62,217 bases of DNA, taken from NCBI GenBank assembly GCA_020161505.1, contig JAIUNY010000018.1, positions 1 to 62,217 of the forward strand, read 5' to 3'. Both the position numbers and the translations under genes were made by a program. The stretch comes from Armatimonadota bacterium (GTDB lineage: Bacteria; Armatimonadota; Fimbriimonadia; Fimbriimonadales; Fimbriimonadaceae). Positions 33,212-44,964 of the stretch are shown in pieces. Under the pieces are notes generated by a model. That model worked only from the letters and a program-made list of their open reading frames with translations, searched no databases and was not told where the DNA came from. How positions within the stretch are numbered: position 1 is the stretch's first letter; every line of letters begins with the position of its first letter.

Positions 33212-33356
33212 ACGTGAAGTGCTTCCTCTGTCGTGGAGGAAGGGTCGGGAATCGCAAGAGACCCGGCTGCGGGGGAAACCGGTGAGAATCCGGTGCTGTG
33301 CCGCAACGGTAACGAGGTCAAGCGACCCCGAAGCCCGAATGCCTGCTTCTTCACTT
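33212..33356 (+). ncRNA. Cobalamin riboswitch
   Basis: The conserved core reads GGTGAGAATCCGGTGCTGT then GCCGCAACGGT, with the downstream box AAGCCCGAATGCCTGC, the hallmark of adenosyl- or other cobalamin aptamers. Outer arms GTGAAG (33214-33219) and CTTCAC (33349-33354) close the P1 helix. Hairpins CTTCCTC/GAGGAAG and GGTC/GACC lie in the 5' part. It points at the prepilin gene (start 33474) and the PEP-CTERM gene behind it. Confidence 0.9.
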
Positions 33357-33473
33357 GAAAACTCAACTTGATCGGACGTTTGCGAAGCACAGGCGAATCC
33401 ACTCCCGTTTTCCCTTCTGCCCCGCTCCCGTGCGATTGCGTTGCCGACAAGGCCCGAGCAGGCCGTGGCATCC

Positions 33474-34208
33474 ATGCAGAAGAAAAACGACTCAACCGGC
33501 TTCACTCTCATCGAACTCCTGGTCGTGATTGCGATCATCGCGATTCTCGCCGCGATCCTCTTCCCCGTCTTCGCCCGCGCGAAATCTGCGGCTCAAGGCA
33601 CCACTAATCTCAGCAATTTGCGCCAGATCGGACTCGCCTGGACGATGTACGCCGGCGACTACGATGACGTCCTCATGCCTCCCCGCTCATTTGTGAGCGG
33701 GAGCAAGTTCGCCTATTGGTGGGCGTCGTATGACTCTACTTCGCAGGTCTTGAGGGAAGAAGAAGGACTTCTCTTCCCCTATACAAAGGGGAAAGGAATC
33801 CAGAGCGATCCGAGTTGGCCGAATCGACTCCGCGCCGTTATCGGGTTCACGGGGTACGGCTACAACTATGCGTATCTCGGCACGGGACGGGTGTCCTCGA
33901 CCTCGGTCGGCTCGCCCAGCGAGACCGTCGCCTTTGCGACCTCGGCGCGGCTCGATTTTCTGCCCCCCAATGCTTTGCAGGGCAACACCTATCTGGAGGC
34001 TCCGAGCGCGAACTATCCCACCTTCCATGCCCGGGCCAACGAGGTTGGGCATATCGTGTGGGCGGACACTCATTCGCGCGGGCGTAAGCCTTTGCTGAGG
34101 AGCACTCCCTTCGCCTCCTGGCAACCCCAACCGTTCCGGCAGGCGCGGCTGGGTGAGATCGACCGCGACGGCGACCTCACCACCAACGAGCTTTTTGACC
34201 TCGATTGA
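33474..34208 (+). CDS. Prepilin-type protein under a cobalamin riboswitch
   Basis: A 244-residue pilin-like protein with leader [18 protein letters not shown], and a hydrophobic helix ending LFPVFARAK. The globular part has [16 protein letters not shown] and [12 protein letters not shown], and near its end [12 protein letters not shown], a variant of the family's DGH motif with the Gly changed. No good Shine-Dalgarno is seen. It lies 117 bp behind a cobalamin riboswitch, and the PEP-CTERM protein follows 67 bp later. A role near vitamin B12 handling at the cell surface is inference from the riboswitch alone. Confidence 0.85.
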
Positions 34209-35571: not shown

Positions 35572-35943
35572 TCAGGATGAATCATCGTCCGCAGGTTTCC
35601 TCAAGTGGGCCTGGCGCGCGACGCAGGCATCGTAAATCCAGCATACAACGCGATCCAAATCGTCATCAACCTCCGTGACAGGGATGCGAACCACCTCCCA
35701 GCCTTGCTCCTTCAGGAACGAGTCCCGGCGGGAATCACGCTCAACGTCATGCCGATCGCCATCAATCTCGACGACGAGCTTGAGTCGTCGCAAGGCGAAG
35801 TCGGCGAAGTAGGGGCCGATGGGGAGTTGGCGTGTGAAATGGAAGCTTGTCTGTTTTGCCCTCAACCGTTGCCAAACGCGGGCCTCCGTTCTGCTCATCG
35901 TCCGACGAAGCTCTTTGGCCCGATCTCGAGTTGAGTCAGACAT
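35572..35943 (-). CDS. DUF559 endonuclease-like protein
   Basis: A 123-residue protein of the DUF559 (Vsr-like PD-(D/E)xK) family. It shows RRTMSRTEARVWQRLRAKQTSFHFTRQLPIGPYFADFALRR-type wording in pieces, then LKLVVEIDGDRHD (catalytic E-x-D), RDSFLKEQGWEVVRIP and a C-terminal helix. Function in vivo is unknown; such proteins are widespread, often single. Terminates near the TTT-rich DNA at 35521. Confidence 0.85.
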   Translation of the reverse strand: MSDSTRDRAKELRRTMSRTEARVWQRLRAKQTSFHFTRQLPIGPYFADFALRRLKLVVEIDGDRHDVERDSRRDSFLKEQGWEVVRIPVTEVDDDLDRVVCWIYDACVARQAHLRKPADDDSS

Positions 35944-36019: not shown

Positions 36020-36165
36020 AGGGCACAAAAAGCAAGCAGGCTCGATGGGGCTCCCGCCCAACCGAGTACGGATCCCCCCTCCTGGGCTTTGCCCATCCTC
36101 CCCCAAATCGGGAGATTTGGGGGAGGACGTCGATTGAGAGTTGGTGGATTCGACTCAAGGAGAGC
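36020..36165. repeat. Intergenic repeat region D (inverted copy of A)
   Basis: Reverse complement of this block reads like 7300-7430: CAATCGACGTCCTCCCCCAA, a palindrome with arms CCTCCCCCAAATC and GATTTGGGGGAGG (36102-36135), then GGGCAAAGCCCAGGAGGG, ATCCGTACTCGGTTGGGCG and CATCGAGCC. The match to region A is strong over ~110 bp. It lies between the SDR gene and the DUF559 gene on the minus strand. Confidence 0.8.
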
Positions 36166-36175
36166 GCCTGTGGCC

Positions 36176-36883
36176 TTACAAAACCCCGAGCGGCGGGGTG
36201 ATGGTGACTTCGTCGATCACCTGATCCGGGGCGAGGCTGATGAGGTAGGCGAGCCCCCGCGCGACGTTGGAGGCACTGAGCATTTTCTCACGAGGCGGGC
36301 TCCCGCCTTGGGCGTCCCAGAGAGGAGTATCGGTGGCCCCGGGAAGCAGCTGCGTGACGCGAATCCCCTTCCCCCGAACCTCGGCGGACAGACACTTCCC
36401 AAACTGCCGCAGACCCGCCTTGGTCGCGGAATACGTCGCGGCACCCGAGAAAACTTGATCCGCCGCGATACTGAGGACATTTACAATCTGCCCCGAGCCG
36501 TGTTCCTGCATGACGGGCAAGACGGAGTGAGTCAGGCACATCGTACCGACGAGATTCACCTGGATCAGACGCTGGTGATGCTCCCATTCCGTCGCGGCGA
36601 AATCGCCAAACTCCGCCATTCCAGCATTGTTGATCAGCACTGGTTCGCCTGGGAGACTGCGAAGAGTGCGCACGGCCTCCGTCATGGTTTGCTCGGAGCA
36701 GAGGTCGCCACAAACCACCGCAGCGATGGGAGCCCCTTGATCGCGGCACTGGGCGGCGAGTTCGCGCAGCATCGCTTCCCGACGAGCCAGGAGCACGAGA
36801 CTGTGGCCCATCTCTGAGGCCATCAGGGCGAACTCCGCCCCAATTCCACTACTCGCGCCGGTGATCAGAATCCGTTTGCTCAT
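36176..36883 (-). CDS. Short-chain dehydrogenase/reductase, possibly sepiapterin reductase-like
   Basis: A 235-residue classical SDR: cofactor motif ITGASSGIGAEF, then VLINNAGMAEFG, catalytic Ser and YxxxK in NVLSIAADQVFSGAATYSATKAG, and RVTQLLPGATDTPLWD. SDRs act on many substrates. Its ATG overlaps the stop of the tandem PTPS gene (ATGA), and sepiapterin reductase is an SDR that acts right after PTPS in tetrahydrobiopterin synthesis, so that role is suggested by context only. Confidence 0.9.
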   Translation of the reverse strand: MSKRILITGASSGIGAEFALMASEMGHSLVLLARREAMLRELAAQCRDQGAPIAAVVCGDLCSEQTMTEAVRTLRSLPGEPVLINNAGMAEFGDFAATEWEHHQRLIQVNLVGTMCLTHSVLPVMQEHGSGQIVNVLSIAADQVFSGAATYSATKAGLRQFGKCLSAEVRGKGIRVTQLLPGATDTPLWDAQGGSPPREKMLSASNVARGLAYLISLAPDQVIDEVTITPPLGVL

Positions 36884-37695
36884 GCCGTAACCTCAAACAC
36901 GTTTCGAGCTGTTTCGAACAGTCGAACGCGCTTGAGACTACCAGGAACCTGTCCGAGAAGCCGATCAAAAATCGCCTGGGCCACGATCTCGCTCGTCGTG
37001 TTTTTGCCCGAGAGTTCCTCGATGTCCAGATCAAGATTGCGGTGATCGTATCGCTCCAGAATCTCTCGATCCACCACGGAGTCAAGGTCGTCGATGGACA
37101 CCGACATCCCGGTTTCCGGATCGATCGGGGCATGAACCGTGACCTCCAAAACATAGTTGTGCCCGTGCCCGTGGACGTGGTTGCACTTGCCGAACAGTCG
37201 GACATTCTCATCAAGCCCAAGCGCCTCGACATGGAGGCGGTGGGAGGCGGCGAATTCGTACACGCGAGTGAGAGTGATCATGTCGGTTGTGTGCTCCCAT
37301 TCGGCATAGAGGAGCGGGGTTTCTTCGAGCTTGAGCTCGGTGAGACTGACCTCACCAGGGAGGTCGGCGAGGGTCTTTTTGAGGTGAATCAAGAGGTTTT
37401 CGAGGCTCGGAACGACGCCCTGGAGCGCAGGGACTTCGTCGTTGAGACTCTTTTGGTCGAAGGGCCGGATGACGCGTTCTTTGAGCACGTCGTCAATCCA
37501 CTTGATGTTGACCACCATCCCGTTGGAGTGGTCAACTTCCCCCTTCGCCGACACCCAGAGAACGTAGTTGTGACCATGGTTGAACGGTGATGCCCAGTGA
37601 CCAAACTGGGCGCGATTGGTGGCTTCGTCCCAGTCATTGCGCCAGTAGCGGTGACCACTGCTGAAGCCGATTTTGCGTGTGAGGGTGACCGCCAT
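36880..37695 (-). CDS. Tandem 6-pyruvoyltetrahydropterin synthase / QueD-like protein
   Basis: A 271-residue protein with two PTPS/QueD domains. The first (~1-130) has FSSGHRYW and SPFNHGHNYVL, giving zinc His ligands, but Ser replaces the Cys that QueD and PTPS use four residues before HGH. The second (~140-271) has FAASHRLH and CNHVHGHGHNYVLEV with Cys in place, and later RYDHRNLDLDIEEL-type Asp-His residues. Single-domain QueD is ~120 residues, so this is a fusion of two. It is coupled to an SDR downstream and lies 2 bp behind an ABC permease gene. Pterin or 7-deazaguanine synthesis are both possible. Confidence 0.88.
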   Translation of the reverse strand: MAVTLTRKIGFSSGHRYWRNDWDEATNRAQFGHWASPFNHGHNYVLWVSAKGEVDHSNGMVVNIKWIDDVLKERVIRPFDQKSLNDEVPALQGVVPSLENLLIHLKKTLADLPGEVSLTELKLEETPLLYAEWEHTTDMITLTRVYEFAASHRLHVEALGLDENVRLFGKCNHVHGHGHNYVLEVTVHAPIDPETGMSVSIDDLDSVVDREILERYDHRNLDLDIEELSGKNTTSEIVAQAIFDRLLGQVPGSLKRVRLFETARNVFEVTA

Positions 37696-37697
37696 GC

Positions 37698-38561
37698 TTA
37701 CTTCTCTCTACGATAGGCGAGCCCGAGGGCTCCGGGTGCCATAGTCCCTTTGCCCGCGATGACGAGCACGATCAGCGCGACCAAATACGGTAGCGCGGTG
37801 AAGAATTGGATGGGAAGAGGAGACTTCCCCTGCATCGCGACCTGCGCCCACTCCAGGGCTCCAATGAGGAGACTCGCTCCTAGTGCCCACCACGGTTTCC
37901 ATCGACCAAACGTGACAAGCGCGATAGCCACAAACCCGCGCCCTGACGTCATGTTCTCGGCGAAAGCCTGCACTAAACCCAGGGCCAGATAGCCTCCGCC
38001 CAGCCCCGCGAAGAGTCCGTTGAGTCCCTGGGCGATCAGGCGGAGCTTGGTCACAGAGAATCCTGCGGATTCGACGGCGGCGGGATACTCCCCCGCCGCG
38101 CGCAAGGCGAGGCCAAACGCGGTTTTTGTCAAACCCCATGCCGCACAACCTACCAAGATCGGGAGCAGAAGGAGCACCGGATCGACACCGGGAAGCATCT
38201 CGGGAAGTCGGGGGGCTCCGCTGAGCGACTCGCCTTTCGCGGCTCCGAGGGCAAAGAGGGTGCCGGTTAGCCCAAGGGCAAAGAGATTAACCGCGGTTCC
38301 CGCAACCACCTGATCGGTCGCGAGGATGATGGTGAAGAAACCTTGAATCAGGCTGAGAGCAATCGCGCACGCAATCGCCGCAAGCATCCCCATCCAAGGC
38401 GAGCCCGTCGCCAACCCGACCGAGACCGAAGCATAGGCAGCGAGGAGCATGATTCCTTCGAGGCCGATGTTGAGAACGCCCGACTTCTGCCCGATCGTCT
38501 CCCCTGTGGCGGCGAAGGCGAGAGGTGCCGAATATTGGGCGATGAGGAGGAGCGGGATCAT
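37698..38561 (-). CDS. ABC transporter permease (nucleoside-type, second permease)
   Basis: A 287-residue polytopic protein: LLLIAQYSAPLAFAATGETIGQKSGVLNIGLEGIMLLA at the start is typical of the second permease of BMP-type nucleoside importers (RnsD/NupC/YufQ class). About eight to nine membrane helices follow. ATG in ATGA overlap with the first permease gene. Confidence 0.9.
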   Translation of the reverse strand: MIPLLLIAQYSAPLAFAATGETIGQKSGVLNIGLEGIMLLAAYASVSVGLATGSPWMGMLAAIACAIALSLIQGFFTIILATDQVVAGTAVNLFALGLTGTLFALGAAKGESLSGAPRLPEMLPGVDPVLLLLPILVGCAAWGLTKTAFGLALRAAGEYPAAVESAGFSVTKLRLIAQGLNGLFAGLGGGYLALGLVQAFAENMTSGRGFVAIALVTFGRWKPWWALGASLLIGALEWAQVAMQGKSPLPIQFFTALPYLVALIVLVIAGKGTMAPGALGLAYRREK

Positions 38562-39595
38562 TCTTCGGCTCCGACCACCGGCTTGCGGCGGCTCATCCAG
38601 GTCACAAATCCGATGTAGGCGAGAACGACCACGCCTTGCACCAGCGGCACCACCGTGTTGCCGATCGGGAGGGTGCGCTTGAGCTCTTCCGACCCCGCAA
38701 AGAGGGCACCGAAATAGGTGGCACTGAAGATCGTCGCAATCGGGTTCAGGGCTCCCATCAGGGCCACCGGGATCGCGATGAAGCCCCAATTCTGGCTGAA
38801 TCCATCGGCGAGCCGACCGGTCAGTCCGGCGTAGTCCACCGCTCCAGCGAGTCCACAGAGACCTCCTGATATCGCCATCGCGCGGATCTGCACGGCATCG
38901 GCGGGAATCTTGTTCGCCCGCGCCGCGCTGGGGTTATCGCCAACGATACGGAGTTGGAGTCCGGCCTTCGTGAGATAAAGATAGATCGCGACCCCAATCG
39001 CGGAAATCAGGGCAATGACAATCCCGAAATGGAGATCGGTTTGCGCCCCGAACCGCATCAGCATCGCCTCGTTGGGCAAGGTGTCGGTGACAAAGAGCTG
39101 CTTTTTGCGCTCCTGCAGCGGGCCACGGAGCAGGTACTCCATGAGTTCCAGGGCGAGAAAGTTCATCAGGATCGTGGAGACCACCACCTGGACGCCGCGT
39201 TTCACCTGAAGCCAGGCTGCCAGCGCAGCAACGCTCGCCCCGAAAAGGACGCCGCAGATCAGGATCATCGGGCCGAGTGCGGCGGGGGCGGCTCCGCCAA
39301 GGAGCTTGGCGATCATCGCTCCGCCGATTCCTCCGAGAACGTACTGGCCTTCGCCGCCGATGTTGTACATTCCCGCCCGCCAGGCAACGACGACTCCAAG
39401 TCCGGCGAGCAACAAGGGGGTCGCGCGAACCAAGGTTCGGCTGATTCCTTGCGCATCCCCGAACGCCCCGAGGAAGATCGTTCGAACCCCAAAGACGGGA
39501 TCTTGGCCAAATGCGGCAAAGGTCAGAAACAACACCGCGACCAACCCCGCCATGATCGCCAGACCCTGGAGCCCGAGGCGAACCGCCTGCTTCAC
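38558..39595 (-). CDS. ABC transporter permease (nucleoside-type, first permease)
   Basis: A 345-residue polytopic protein with RATPLLLAGLGVVVAWRAGMYNIGGEGQ, the signature of BMP-linked permeases (YufP/RnsC class), and ~9 helices. ATGA overlap with the ATPase gene upstream and with the next permease downstream. Confidence 0.92.
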   Translation of the reverse strand: MKQAVRLGLQGLAIMAGLVAVLFLTFAAFGQDPVFGVRTIFLGAFGDAQGISRTLVRATPLLLAGLGVVVAWRAGMYNIGGEGQYVLGGIGGAMIAKLLGGAAPAALGPMILICGVLFGASVAALAAWLQVKRGVQVVVSTILMNFLALELMEYLLRGPLQERKKQLFVTDTLPNEAMLMRFGAQTDLHFGIVIALISAIGVAIYLYLTKAGLQLRIVGDNPSAARANKIPADAVQIRAMAISGGLCGLAGAVDYAGLTGRLADGFSQNWGFIAIPVALMGALNPIATIFSATYFGALFAGSEELKRTLPIGNTVVPLVQGVVVLAYIGFVTWMSRRKPVVGAEE

Positions 39596-41031
39596 GCGGG
39601 GGCCTCGATGGATCCGAAGTAGTCGGTGCCGAGTTCGCCCCGGCTGATCGCGAGTTGACGTGTGGAAAGCAGGGCCAACTCATCGAGATCGGCGCTGAAC
39701 AAGACTACGGCAGCTCCAGCCTTGGCGGCGTCTCGGAGGCGTTCGTGGACATCGTTGGCGGCGCGAATATCGAGCCCGCGCGTGGGGTTCACCGCCACGA
39801 TGAGCTTCGGATTCTGCGAAAGCACTCGCCCGACGATGACTTTCTGCTGGTTTCCCCCGCTCAAACTCGCCACCGGGTCGGTGATCTCGCCGATCTTGAC
39901 GCGGAAGCGATCCACGATGTCGCTCGCCCATCGCCGCACCTTGCTTCGCATCAGCATCGGGCCGTTTTCGGCATCCTGAGGAACATGGGAAAGGAGCGTG
40001 TTCTCCTCAATCGAGAGTCCAAGAGCGAGGCCGTCCTGGTGACGATCTTGGGGGATGTAGCCTGTCGCATCCGGTCGCTGGATGTCGCCTTGCGCCACTT
40101 CCCTCACTCCGACCAAGGCTTCGGCAAGCTCGATCTGACCATTTCCATCCACGCCCCCGATCCCAAGAATTTCGCCGGAGGCGACTTGGAATTGGGCTTG
40201 CTTCACGGCAAGATTGCCCCGGTCGCCCAGCACATCAATCGACTGGACGTCGAGGAGCGTTTCGCCGCTGGAGGTGGAGACGGCGGCTTCTCGGTGCGGA
40301 ACTTCGCCGACCATCCAGTGCTCCAGTTGCTCGGCGTTGGTCTCCTCGATCCGGCAGGAGGCCACCCATTTGCCTCGTCGCAGAACGGTCACCCGGTCCG
40401 CGATCGCCATGACTTCACTGAGCTTATGGGCAATCAGGATGATCGCGATGTTCTGCTCTTTGAGTTCGCGCAGCACGCGGAAGAGGTCATTTACCTCGCT
40501 CGGACTCAGAACCGCAGTGGGTTCGTCGAGGATCAGGACGAGGGCGCGGTCGGCGACACCTTTGAGGATCTCCAGCCGTTGCTGAACACCCACCGGGAGA
40601 CTGCCCGTGCGTTCGTCGGCATCGACCTTCCAGCCCAGATCAATCGCCCGAGAGAGCGCGTTTTTCGAGAGCGCTTTGGTATCGAGAGTCTGCCACAAGC
40701 CGCGCATTCCGCTGAGAGCCAGATTTTCCTCGACGGTGAAGTTCGGCACGAGCATGAAGTGCTGGTGCACCATCTGGATGCCATCGTCGCGGGCCTGAAA
40801 GGGGCGGCCAATCGGCGCAGGGCCGCCGTTCAGTGTGACGGTACCGGAGTCAGGCACGACAAACCCGGCGAGGATCCCCATGAGAGTGGACTTCCCTGCT
40901 CCGTTCTCACCCAGAACGGCGTGGACTTCGCCCGGATAGAAATCGGCAGACACATCCTGCAAAGCCGCGACGGAGCGATACCGCTTCGTCACGGACTTCA
41001 CAGACAGAATCGGCTCCGGAGGCACCGTCAT
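39592..41031 (-). CDS. ABC transporter ATP-binding protein, double NBD (nucleoside-type)
   Basis: A 479-residue protein with two ATPase halves. The first has GENGAGKSTLMGILAG, MVHQHFMLVPNFTVEENL (the HQHFML wording is typical of the YufO/RnsB nucleoside class), and LILDEPTAVLSPSE. The second has GGVDGNGQIELAEAL in place of Walker A, YIPQDRHQDGL, SGGNQQKVIVGR and PTRGLDI. It follows the BMP gene by 32 bp and overlaps the first permease. Confidence 0.94.
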   Translation of the reverse strand: MTVPPEPILSVKSVTKRYRSVAALQDVSADFYPGEVHAVLGENGAGKSTLMGILAGFVVPDSGTVTLNGGPAPIGRPFQARDDGIQMVHQHFMLVPNFTVEENLALSGMRGLWQTLDTKALSKNALSRAIDLGWKVDADERTGSLPVGVQQRLEILKGVADRALVLILDEPTAVLSPSEVNDLFRVLRELKEQNIAIILIAHKLSEVMAIADRVTVLRRGKWVASCRIEETNAEQLEHWMVGEVPHREAAVSTSSGETLLDVQSIDVLGDRGNLAVKQAQFQVASGEILGIGGVDGNGQIELAEALVGVREVAQGDIQRPDATGYIPQDRHQDGLALGLSIEENTLLSHVPQDAENGPMLMRSKVRRWASDIVDRFRVKIGEITDPVASLSGGNQQKVIVGRVLSQNPKLIVAVNPTRGLDIRAANDVHERLRDAAKAGAAVVLFSADLDELALLSTRQLAISRGELGTDYFGSIEAPA

Positions 41032-41063
41032 CTTGGGATCCTCTCGGGCGGGTGCAGGACGGG

Positions 41064-42080
41064 TTAGAACTCGTCCTTCGGGACGACAAGCTCACCCGCG
41101 AGGATGCGATCCGCCGCGCCATCGACAAATGCCTGGGCTTCCGCCGTCACCGCGGCTCCGGCCTTGGGATTCTTCACGAACTCGACCGCGCCCTCCACCA
41201 TGCCGACCAGCCGGATTCCACCAACATACTTGCCTTCCTTGATCTCCTTGGCGAGAGAGACAAAGGGGGCTTCCGCGTTGATCACCGCACTCGCGATGAC
41301 CTGCGGGCTCATGTCGTTTTGGTTCTCGTTCGCACCGAAGCAGTAGACCTTCTTCTCTTCGCAAGCCCCGAAGAACCCCGGAGCGGCATTGTTGGTTTGG
41401 TGGATGAGGAAGTCTGCGCCTTCGGCAATGGCTTGGAGCGTGGCTTGCTTCGCGGCGGCGACATCATCGTTCTTACCGGTGAACTTTTCGATCACCACGA
41501 CATCGGGCTTGGCCGCCTTAGCCCCGGCGGCGAAAGCCTTGAAGGTTGATCGAATTGACGGGACATCCGGGCCGCCAATCATGGCGACCTTTCCGGTGGT
41601 GGTGAGGCGCCCCGCCATCATTCCCGCGAGATAGAACGCCTGCTCCATGTAGAAGCGGAAGGCACCTGCGTTCGGGCCGAACTCTCCGCCAGAGCTTGTG
41701 ACGAATGTGGTGTTGGGGAACTCTTTCGCCATGGCAACAGCGGGAGCGTTGTATTCAAAACCGTGTCCGAGAACCAGGTGGAAGCCGTCCTGGGCGTAGC
41801 TGCGAAGGTCATCGTTGGTGCTCGCATCGGTGGCCACCTTGTTGGCCACTTCGGCGCCCAATTCCTTCTCAATCGCTTTGAGTCCTCGGTAGGCGATGGC
41901 ACTCCAGCCGCTATCGTTCACGTTGCCCGGCGTCAACAGGGCGACCTTCAAGGTGCCCTCAATCGGCTTGCCTCCACCCACATTGGGTTCGACCTTGACT
42001 TCTTTGCCCTCGGGGGCTCCGCCAGTGCATCCAACGAGCACCATCAGACAGAGAATTGCCCACATCCACACACGCATCAT
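41064..42080 (-). CDS. BMP-family (BmpA/TmpC) nucleoside-binding lipoprotein
   Basis: A 338-residue substrate-binding protein with a lipobox (LMVLVGC). The mature part has VALLTPGNVNDSGWSAIAYRGL, GHGFEYNAPAVAMAKEFP, GGPDVPSIRSTFKAFAAG, ADFLIHQTNNAAPG and NQNDMSPQVIASA, all typical of the BMP fold that binds purine nucleosides or related ligands. First gene of the ABC-PTPS-SDR operon. TAGAAT lies 6 bases before the first ATG. Confidence 0.93.
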   Translation of the reverse strand: MMRVWMWAILCLMVLVGCTGGAPEGKEVKVEPNVGGGKPIEGTLKVALLTPGNVNDSGWSAIAYRGLKAIEKELGAEVANKVATDASTNDDLRSYAQDGFHLVLGHGFEYNAPAVAMAKEFPNTTFVTSSGGEFGPNAGAFRFYMEQAFYLAGMMAGRLTTTGKVAMIGGPDVPSIRSTFKAFAAGAKAAKPDVVVIEKFTGKNDDVAAAKQATLQAIAEGADFLIHQTNNAAPGFFGACEEKKVYCFGANENQNDMSPQVIASAVINAEAPFVSLAKEIKEGKYVGGIRLVGMVEGAVEFVKNPKAGAAVTAEAQAFVDGAADRILAGELVVPKDEF

Positions 42081-42092: not shown

Positions 42093-42210
42093 CGCGCGGA
42101 TCGGGGGTTGATCGGCAAGGGGCGGGCCGCGTTCGCGAAAAATATGCCTTAGATCAGTGAGGGAGCCGCTGTCCCGAGCGCGCCGGGCCCCCAGCGGTAG
42201 GATGATCGAA

Positions 42211-43539
42211 ATGTCATCGCATGTCGGATCAGAGCAGGAGGCTGCCCTCCCCCTCGTTCCGCGCGATGTCACCAAGGTCTACTGGCCGCTCGCCCTTAGC
42301 TGGGTGTTCATGGCGCTGGAAGGCCAGATTGCGATGTGGCTCGTCGGGATCATGCCCGGCACCAAGATCAGCCAGGCCGGGCTCCTGATTGTGATGAGCC
42401 TGGCGATCTTCATCGAGAGCCCGGTCATCGACCTGCTCTCGACCAGCACCACCCTGGGGACGAATCAGAAGTCGTATCGCTCCCTGCGCAAGTTCGCCCT
42501 GATCCTGATGGCGTGGGTTACGTTCGCCCATTGCGCGGTGATGTTCACGCCGATGTATCCCTTGGTGTCTCAACAGATCTTAGGGGCTTCTCCCGAAGTC
42601 GCTGGATCGGCTTGGTATGCACTGGCTTTGATGCCCTTCTGGAGCGCGTGCGTGGGATGGCGCAGGTTCCTGCAAGGGATCATGATCCGGGCGGGGGTCA
42701 CGAGACCAATCAGCTGGGGGACACTGGTGCGGATCATCGCGATGATCGGGGTGGGATATCCCCTGGTTTTTGCCAAAATGCACCCTCTGGCGGTGATCGG
42801 GATTGCCATGTCGGCGGCGGTGTTTGCGGAGGCGGTCTATGTCCATATCGTCTCAAGACCTGTGGTTCGGGGCCTGCCCGAAGGCCATGAAAGTGCCGAG
42901 CCGCCCCTCTCTGGGTTGTTTAAGTTTCACCTTCCTCTCACTGCGGCAACGATGCTGATGCTCACGGCTCCGCTTTTTGTCAGCCGAGGATTGACGAGTT
43001 CCTCGACGCCCGTGCTGGATATGGCGGCCTGGCAAACGGCTTCCACCGTCATCTGGCTGTTCCGAACCATCACTTTTGCCCTCCCGGAGGCACTCATCTC
43101 GGTTCATCGCCGGGGCAGCGAGCCGGTGTTGTTCCGCTATTGTCTGCTCGTCGGCGGAAGTCTGACGGTGCTGATGCTTGCGTTCCACTTCACCAAGCTC
43201 GACCTGGCCACATTCCTTGGGCTCTTTCGGTCGGATGCCGATGTTGCGGAGCGCGCGGCTCTGGCTCTGTTGGTTTGTGCTGCCTTGCCGGCGCTGAACT
43301 CGGCGATGTCTTACTACCGCGCGATGCTCACCAAAGAACATGTGACCTCGGCCCGATTGCTCGCGATTGGCACGTCGCTGATCTCGCTGCTGGGCGCGCT
43401 TGCGCTGGGTTCCGCGCTAAGAATGCCGGGAGTTGTCGTGGCGGCCTTCGCCCTCACAGTGGCCCATGTCGTCGAGATGTTCACCCTCGCTCTCGCGTGG
43501 AAATCCGTTCGGGCAAATCGCCCAGTTCTGGGGTCCTGA
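42211..43539 (+). CDS. Polytopic membrane protein, MATE/MOP flippase-like
   Basis: A 442-residue protein with about 12 membrane helices (for example WPLALSWVFMALEGQIAMWLVG, FHLPLTAATMLMLTAPLFVS, LLAIGTSLISLLGALALG). The two-half layout, with a polar residue at the start of helices 1 and 7 and a long family-typical spacing, fits the MOP superfamily (MATE or lipid-linked flippase), but no defining motif is strong. A TAGGAT hexamer at 42197 ends 8 bases before ATG 42211, which favours MSSHVGSEQEA as the start over upstream ATGs at 42157 and 42202. Confidence 0.65.
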   Translation: MSSHVGSEQEAALPLVPRDVTKVYWPLALSWVFMALEGQIAMWLVGIMPGTKISQAGLLIVMSLAIFIESPVIDLLSTSTTLGTNQKSYRSLRKFALILMAWVTFAHCAVMFTPMYPLVSQQILGASPEVAGSAWYALALMPFWSACVGWRRFLQGIMIRAGVTRPISWGTLVRIIAMIGVGYPLVFAKMHPLAVIGIAMSAAVFAEAVYVHIVSRPVVRGLPEGHESAEPPLSGLFKFHLPLTAATMLMLTAPLFVSRGLTSSSTPVLDMAAWQTASTVIWLFRTITFALPEALISVHRRGSEPVLFRYCLLVGGSLTVLMLAFHFTKLDLATFLGLFRSDADVAERAALALLVCAALPALNSAMSYYRAMLTKEHVTSARLLAIGTSLISLLGALALGSALRMPGVVVAAFALTVAHVVEMFTLALAWKSVRANRPVLGS

Positions 43540-43572: not shown

Positions 43573-44964
43573 ATGCTTCGTGCTTTTGGTGTTTTTCTCG
43601 TAGGTGGTGTTCTCGCTTCAGGCGTCTTGGCTCAGTCAGGACGGAGCGACGGCTTTGCCCTCTTTGCCGATCGACACCCGACCGAAGCCGAAGCCGCGAA
43701 GAACTACACCGCCGCCAAGCACGAGCCCCGTGTCGGGTGCTACGTCGGAGCATTTTTGGATCTGGATAGCTCTCTCAAGGAGACCTTCCGAGATTCGACG
43801 GGCAAGGTGCGCCGCCTCCCTCTGCCGTTCGAGCAGATCGTGGGCAAGCAGCACGCGACTTACTTTTATTACATGGGTTATGGCAGTCGATTGGCGACCG
43901 ACTGGATCACCCAACTCGGCAACGAAGGCCGGATTGTCCATGTCGCTCTCGAGCCGAACAACGGGCTCGACAAGGTCAAAGATGACGAGTATCTGACGAA
44001 CATGGCCAAGGGCATGGGCGAGACGCGCGTGCCGATTTTCCTGCGGTTCGCCAGCGAGATGAACGGCCCTTGGGTGAAGTACCACGGGGATCCGAAGCTC
44101 TATATCGAGAAGTTCCGACTCGTGGCGAACAAGATGCGCGAGTACGCGCCGAACGTCGCCATGGTCTGGTGCCCCTATGCCACCCCGACCCGGCTCATCC
44201 CGAGCTACTATCCCGGCGATGCTTATGTCGATTGGGTTGGCGTGAACATCTACTCGGTGACTTACTACGATCAAGATTGGAAGAAGCCGGCTAAGCAGGT
44301 TCATCCCACCGAGAAACTGGACTACGTGTACGACCGATACTCGGCGAAGAAGCCGATCATGATCGGAGAATATGGCGCGGCCCACTGGAGCGCTTTGGAG
44401 AGCAAATCGACCACCGATTTCGCCATGCGCGCGATCCAGGCGATGTATCAGGCTTTGCCCCGGGCTTACCCCCGGGTGAAGTGCATCAATTACTTCAACA
44501 CCAACAACATGGAGCTGGAGCATCGCAAGAACAACAACTACGCGGTGACTCAGAATCCCCAGGTGCTGGATCTCTACCGCTCGATCATCCGGCAGAACTA
44601 CTTCCTGAGCCAAGCGGTGGATCGTCGGGGCTTTGCTGTGGATCAAGTGGCGGCTCAACCCGTTTCGGGCGCGAATTTGACCTTCCAAGACTTGGTTCCG
44701 GTCACTCCGCTTCCGGTTCGGCAGAAGCAGGCTATGTCGGGTACGACGAGGCTCTCTGGCTGGATTCGCGACCACAGCGGCGCGACTTCGATGCGGTTCA
44801 TCCTCAACGGGCGCACGATCCATCTGGGCAAGACGAAACAGGCGTGGGAGTTCAACTGGGACACCACGAGTGTTGCGAACGGCGTGCATAAGCTGGAACT
44901 CTGGGCGGAGCGGAATGGTCGCGCTATCGCGAAGTATCCGATCACCGTCACGGTTCAGAACTGA
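43573..44964 (+). CDS. Glycoside hydrolase family 26-like secreted enzyme
   Basis: A 463-residue protein with signal peptide (MLRAFGVFLVGGVLASGVLAQ). The (beta/alpha)8 barrel has IFLRFASEMNGPW, with the likely acid/base Glu, WVGVNIYSVTYYDQDW, and PIMIGEYGAAHW, with the likely nucleophile Glu, in GH26 order. A C-terminal ~80-residue Ig-like module (RLSGWIRDHSGATSMRFILNG onward) may bind glycan. GH26 enzymes cleave beta-mannan or beta-1,3-xylan; the exact substrate is open. Confidence 0.82.
   Translation: MLRAFGVFLVGGVLASGVLAQSGRSDGFALFADRHPTEAEAAKNYTAAKHEPRVGCYVGAFLDLDSSLKETFRDSTGKVRRLPLPFEQIVGKQHATYFYYMGYGSRLATDWITQLGNEGRIVHVALEPNNGLDKVKDDEYLTNMAKGMGETRVPIFLRFASEMNGPWVKYHGDPKLYIEKFRLVANKMREYAPNVAMVWCPYATPTRLIPSYYPGDAYVDWVGVNIYSVTYYDQDWKKPAKQVHPTEKLDYVYDRYSAKKPIMIGEYGAAHWSALESKSTTDFAMRAIQAMYQALPRAYPRVKCINYFNTNNMELEHRKNNNYAVTQNPQVLDLYRSIIRQNYFLSQAVDRRGFAVDQVAAQPVSGANLTFQDLVPVTPLPVRQKQAMSGTTRLSGWIRDHSGATSMRFILNGRTIHLGKTKQAWEFNWDTTSVANGVHKLELWAERNGRAIAKYPITVTVQN

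Follow-up and report, generated by a model that had tools for sequence, protein, structure and literature searches.

The window, meaning the whole analysed stretch of 62,217 nucleotides, is contig C4 of the genome (3.14 Mb, 99.94% complete) of a Fimbriimonadaceae bacterium of the phylum Armatimonadota, which has been little studied. G, L, C and f numbers are used below as labels for genomes, loci, contigs and families respectively, and G000 denotes the genome of the window. Positions 36176-42080 hold a six-gene operon on the minus strand, read from 42080 to 36176 (Table 1), where the spacing between consecutive genes from the BMP lipoprotein to the SDR is 32, -4, -4, 2 and -4 bp. An earlier note on this DNA had listed these six genes, with overlaps or small gaps between them, and all six were confirmed in that order. 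The sole correction concerns the start of PermB: it is the ATG at 38561, and the mechanical ORF call, which starts at 38789, is too long. The first four genes make up a complete BMP-type ABC importer, i.e. a PF02608 lipoprotein, a double-NBD ATPase and two BPD_transp_2 permeases.

Table 1. Operon genes, neighbouring features and partner genes (positions refer to the window unless a contig or locus label is given)
Feature	Location	Strand	Remarks
BMP-family (PnrA-like) substrate-binding lipoprotein of importer	41064-42080	-	PF02608, E 1.3e-39; lipobox LVGC, C18 conserved
Double-NBD ABC ATPase	39592-41031	-	PF00005 (ABC_tran) in two stretches; 4 bp overlap with PermA
ABC permease A (PermA, BPD_transp_2)	38558-39595	-	PF02653, E 8e-35; GTG start
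ABC permease B (PermB, BPD_transp_2)	37698-38561	-	PF02653, E 1e-27
Tandem PTPS	36880-37695	-	PF01242 in two stretches, E 6e-50
SDR, proposed Chlorobium-type sepiapterin reductase	36176-36883	-	PF00106, E 1.7e-44
Cobalamin riboswitch	33223-33364	+	RF00174, 41.3 bits, exceeds gathering score
Prepilin-like ORF	33441-34208
DUF559 gene	35572-35943
Palindromic element	~36095-36175		CCCCCAAATCTCCCGATTTGGGGG
Divergent multi-pass membrane protein	42157-43539	+	no Pfam/NCBIfam match
Glycosyl hydrolase family 26-like protein	43573-44964	+	Big_7 domain
FolE2	C22:94086-94832		PF02649
Phenylalanine hydroxylase (PheH)	C25:60455-61150
Pterin-4a-carbinolamine dehydratase (PCD)	C29:26140-26406
Separate QueD	C14:22090-22488		motif CQNLHGH
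Second BMP protein	C25:132553-133542
PF00962 gene, family f13	L182:4375-5388
PF00962 gene, family f13	L183:4736-5806
PF00962 gene, family f13	L176:2259-3065
PF00962 gene, family f13	L193:4623-5672
PF00962 gene, family f13	L197:11532-12599

Several neighbouring features may be recorded here. The membrane protein transcribed divergently from the operon has a homologue in the same position, divergently upstream, in L042, L044 and L122, and a glycosyl hydrolase family 26-like gene also lies beside the operon. Just downstream of the SDR is a short palindromic element, close to a DUF559 gene; it is apparently repeated near the PheH gene (L140, ~1278-1784) with the same translation, LPQISRFGGG. The cobalamin riboswitch lies upstream of a prepilin-like ORF, which is an odd target, and no adjacent B12 gene was seen.

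PTPS subfamilies are told apart by signature, namely PTPS-II (tetrahydrobiopterin, BH4) with CxxxxxHGH, PTPS-I (QueD) with CxxxHGH and PTPS-III with ExxHGH (PMC5041015). According to the same paper, assignment of the paralogues by best hit can go wrong, and bacterial genes credited with BH4 synthesis are few (about 50). Since a best hit can mislead, the case for a BH4-type enzyme rests here on motif and context. The two halves of the operon protein share 30% identity (E 2e-16), which makes the term tandem apt. The C half carries KCNHVHGHGHNY, the PTPS-II form CxxxxxHGH, and its best match in the PDB is the rat BH4 PTPS (E 7e-31). The catalytic Cys-Asp-His, the three zinc histidines and the pterin-anchoring glutamate are all present in this half; C171, D217, the Zn ligands H152/H177/H179 and E261 occur in 86 of 86 sequences of the order, and H218 in 84 of 86. 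The N half keeps the Zn histidines and the pterin Glu, whereas neither the catalytic Cys nor CxxxxxHGH is found in it; across the order the Cys is replaced, in most sequences by Trp, and in most of them Gln stands in place of the catalytic His. Most N halves beyond the order are also without the Cys, while G208 has it in both halves. In Rokubacteriota (L049, L050, L052, L054) two adjoining PTPS ORFs, the first lacking the catalytic Cys, are followed by FolE1 and SDR genes, and the pair is an unfused version of the tandem protein. The loss of the catalytic cysteine from the N half is a new observation. Judged from its residues, the C half would form 6-pyruvoyl-tetrahydropterin from dihydroneopterin triphosphate, and the N half may be its partner in a structural role or in pterin binding. 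With one half that looks dead, this PTPS offers a test case for active-site sharing in a multimeric enzyme.

The earlier note had offered a role in 7-deazaguanine salvage as its alternative. In a fuller form of this explanation, the tandem PTPS would be a QueD-like enzyme that makes or salvages 7-deazaguanine (queuosine), with a deazapurine as the cargo of the importer. The NCBIfam QueD model does score the protein just above its cut-off (90.7 vs 89.25 bits), and a purine-like importer would suit deazapurine uptake. Yet CxxxHGH is present in neither half, a separate QueD with the proper motif and a QueC (contig C11) are encoded elsewhere in the genome, and in sister lineages the PTPS has folE1 and an SDR resembling sepiapterin reductase as its neighbours. 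We therefore consider this explanation highly improbable.

The SDR is harder to place, as a single-sequence search with it matches many SDRs. When 18 SDRs from such operons, those of Rokubacteriota among them, were combined into a profile and the PDB was searched with it, the sepiapterin reductase (SR) of Chlorobium tepidum (2bd0) came second, essentially tied with clavaldehyde dehydrogenase. The ranking by fold likewise puts clavaldehyde dehydrogenase, FabG and sepiapterin reductase close together, the first two fitting as well as 2bd0 does (VIA-align Z 33.0, rmsd 1.8, 230 aligned, 27% identity). Because fold comparison alone does not decide among SDRs, the argument for a sepiapterin reductase rests on residues and context. 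Substrate binding by the Chlorobium enzyme depends on both Trp196 and Phe99, which a review reports as indispensable (PMC7520308). These align with W189 and F92 of the operon SDR, where W189 is found in 37 of 37 sequences and F92 in the protein of the window and most of its relatives. The Ser-Tyr-Lys residues (S138, Y151, K155) are likewise present in 37 of 37, and the TPxW segment is shared with 2bd0. The other SDRs recovered from the genome of the window have no Trp at the place of W189, and clavaldehyde dehydrogenase also lacks it. We propose that the operon SDR is a sepiapterin reductase of the Chlorobium type, which would convert the PTPS product to BH4. The product of the Chlorobium enzyme is L-threo-tetrahydrobiopterin, going by the title of a reference in PMC7520308, and from the resemblance between the two proteins the L-threo isomer is the probable form here too. 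It may be noted that the SDR orthologue has been lost in many relatives and is absent from about half of the genomes having importer and PTPS, so that another reductase must serve there.

The remaining enzymes of the pathway were sought in the genome and its relatives. The search for folE and queC that had been suggested for G000 returned, besides the separate QueC, FolE2 and not FolE1. FolE2 occurs in nearly all members of the family of the window, in which no FolE1 (PF01227) was found. In f4 and in the sister family f2, FolE1 comes directly after PTPS; G008 of f2 is the exception and has FolE2. The two are mutually exclusive, clear copies of both being seen together in no genome of the order. 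Neither was found in G073 (L084, L143; 100% complete), which contains the importer, the tandem PTPS, the hydroxylase and the dehydratase; this counts against the BH4 reading. PheH and PCD are both encoded in G000 and are found in 98 and 100 of the 113 genomes respectively; in G111 the hydroxylase gene adjoins PTPS-folE1 in divergent orientation. PheH is missing from G018, G084, G085, G217, G115, G155, G161, G160, G131 and G208, where the operon or parts of it are present. Importer and PTPS are both found in L177 (G217), L181 (G115) and L173 (G208), with folE1 in G217 and G115 and the SDR in G217, which belongs to a deep lineage and is a single contig with the whole operon. PheH therefore is not the sole pterin consumer, and others must exist.

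These genes resemble known BH4 biosynthesis in that the GTP cyclohydrolase I, PTPS-II and sepiapterin reductase families come together in one operon in sister lineages, the PTPS-II motif and catalytic residues are present, and PheH and PCD are in the genome. The differences are that the PTPS is a fusion whose first half has no catalytic Cys, that the family of the window uses a FolE2 encoded elsewhere, and that the operon contains an ABC importer. The earlier proposal that PTPS followed by an SDR mirrors the last steps of BH4 synthesis is thus borne out by the PTPS-II motif, the sepiapterin reductase residues, the folE in the operons of sister lineages and the two partner genes. The further claim of a new pterin or deazapurine pathway was too strong, as the enzymes spell the known route from GTP to BH4. 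FolE2 would turn GTP into dihydroneopterin triphosphate, the substrate of the PTPS; import of that substrate itself was also considered and dropped, given the presence of this GTP cyclohydrolase. PheH would be a user of the cofactor, and the dehydratase would aid its recycling.

We then come to the importer. A lack of linkage in relatives had been named as grounds for rejecting the original idea, and the linkage proved to be conserved. In 67 of the 85 PTPS-bearing loci in the order, the gene immediately upstream of PTPS, and on the same strand, is PermB, and in 53 of those 67 all four importer genes are in order; this is far beyond chance. Genomes of one order are not independent, and deeper families give more independent support. 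The tandem PTPS is found in 76 of the 80 genomes with an operon-type BMP. The other four comprise three fragmented or incomplete assemblies and G013, where the importer runs into the contig end. The operon order in the sister family is importer-PTPS-folE1-SDR, and the same seven genes are all found in f31 (G217, G218). In f6 and f13 the arrangement is importer-PTPS-folE1 (G115, G157, G166, G167, G155) or importer-folE1 (G158, G160, G161); G131 has PTPS-folE1-SDR about 2.7 kb downstream of the importer, and G208 has importer-PTPS. In the sister family, f31 and Rokubacteriota, folE1 and the SDR adjoin PTPS, which gives PTPS-II a genomic link to GTP cyclohydrolase I and a sepiapterin-reductase-like SDR; the Rokubacteriota loci have no importer. 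Related importers in other families, e.g. f11, have no pterin gene nearby. PTPS is also kept in genomes without an operon-type importer (e.g. G061, G072 and family f3), hence the importer is dispensable. The position of PermB next to PTPS across the order, and the linkage of the importer to PTPS and/or folE1 in several further Armatimonadota families, are new.

It could be argued that the importer is functionally unrelated, with a cargo such as vitamin B6 or some other small ring compound, and is only co-transcribed with the BH4 genes. Its nearest NCBIfam models are those of a putative B6 ABC transporter (NF047927 and partners), the importer and PTPS are each present but unlinked in G079, G073 and G040, and the importer is sometimes lost. 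But the B6 match is far below cut-off (BMP 95 vs 400 bits), as are the matches to the partner models, and several families have kept the importer linked to PTPS and/or folE1. We consider this explanation unlikely.

The binding protein gives some indication of the cargo. In BMP nucleoside receptors the base is held between two aromatics and the ribose by Asp225, Lys242 and Asp98 (BmpA numbering; PMC13325309). The operon importer shares with PnrA, BmpA and BmpD the BMP fold and the lipoprotein, double-NBD and two-permease make-up, but its BMP lacks the nucleoside receptor signature of the PnrA/BmpA type: the first aromatic is W59, the second position (Phe in these receptors) is N/G/E/D, Asp225 is replaced by N251 and Lys242 is not conserved. 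The second BMP of the same genome keeps both aromatics, Asp225 and Lys242. An AlphaFold model of the operon BMP (pLDDT 90) was compared with known structures, and the closest both by sequence and by fold is AtzT (6pi5; Z 35.9, rmsd 2.2, 293 aligned, 25% identity), a guanine/2-hydroxyatrazine binding protein with a Kd of 110 nM for guanine (PMC6834077). AtzT, Lbp and BmpD are, however, tied within one Z unit as fold matches, so this ranking does not separate nucleobase from nucleoside. In AtzT too the ribose Lys is absent, and its guanine contact Asn220 corresponds to Asn230 of the operon BMP, whereas Glu165 is replaced by Ser175 and Asn218 by Gln228, and Trp194, which is the second aromatic of the stack, has been lost in the family of the window. 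The motif around E109 (HGxE) is conserved widely across families. As Glu165 and Trp194 of AtzT are not kept and the pocket varies between families, the cargo is not fixed by sequence. RfuA, with the same fold, binds the pteridine-related riboflavin. Pterin has the same 2-amino-4-oxo face as guanine. Since the ribose contacts are lost from the operon BMP and kept in its paralogue, the likeliest cargo is a planar ring without ribose, with pterin as our first choice and a guanine-type base as the second. The earlier idea of a nucleoside-type importer supplying a precursor survives in part: supply of a precursor is possible, while the nucleoside signature is gone and a base or pterin fits better.

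The strongest competing explanation is that the enzymes make BH4 and that the imported compound is a purine nucleoside or base from which the cell makes GTP, at the start of the pathway. The BMP family usually binds nucleosides or purines, AtzT itself binds guanine (PMC6834077), and the closest folds are those of AtzT, Lbp and BmpD. In family f13 (L176, L179, L182, L183, L193, L197) the importer is directly preceded by a gene of the adenosine deaminase family (PF00962), which also favours a purine cargo. This gene is found in one family only, however, and an importer acting as a general purine feed would not need to be tied to the pterin branch across many families. Moreover, the operon BMP is without the ribose contacts for a nucleoside, and the nucleoside signature is intact in the second BMP of the genome. 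We regard the feedstock explanation as possible but on the whole somewhat unlikely.

On balance, we think it probable that the operon serves to make a tetrahydrobiopterin-type cofactor and that its importer is dedicated to the same metabolism. The importer would serve in uptake or recapture of the ribose-free ring, if the predicted inward direction holds. A more specific and more tentative suggestion, which we put forward at rather less than even chance, is that it is a dedicated bacterial ABC pterin importer co-inherited with BH4 synthesis in Armatimonadota, and that the pterin serves an unrecognised enzyme in PheH-less lineages like that of G217. In the literature that we searched, no paper was found that connects biopterin with Armatimonadota, or pterins with a BMP importer. 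The operon described here, in which BH4 genes and an importer are kept together in several families of one phylum, provides a concrete candidate system for pterin uptake in bacteria, and a dedicated pterin importer, if true, would reveal environmental pterin salvage or exchange.
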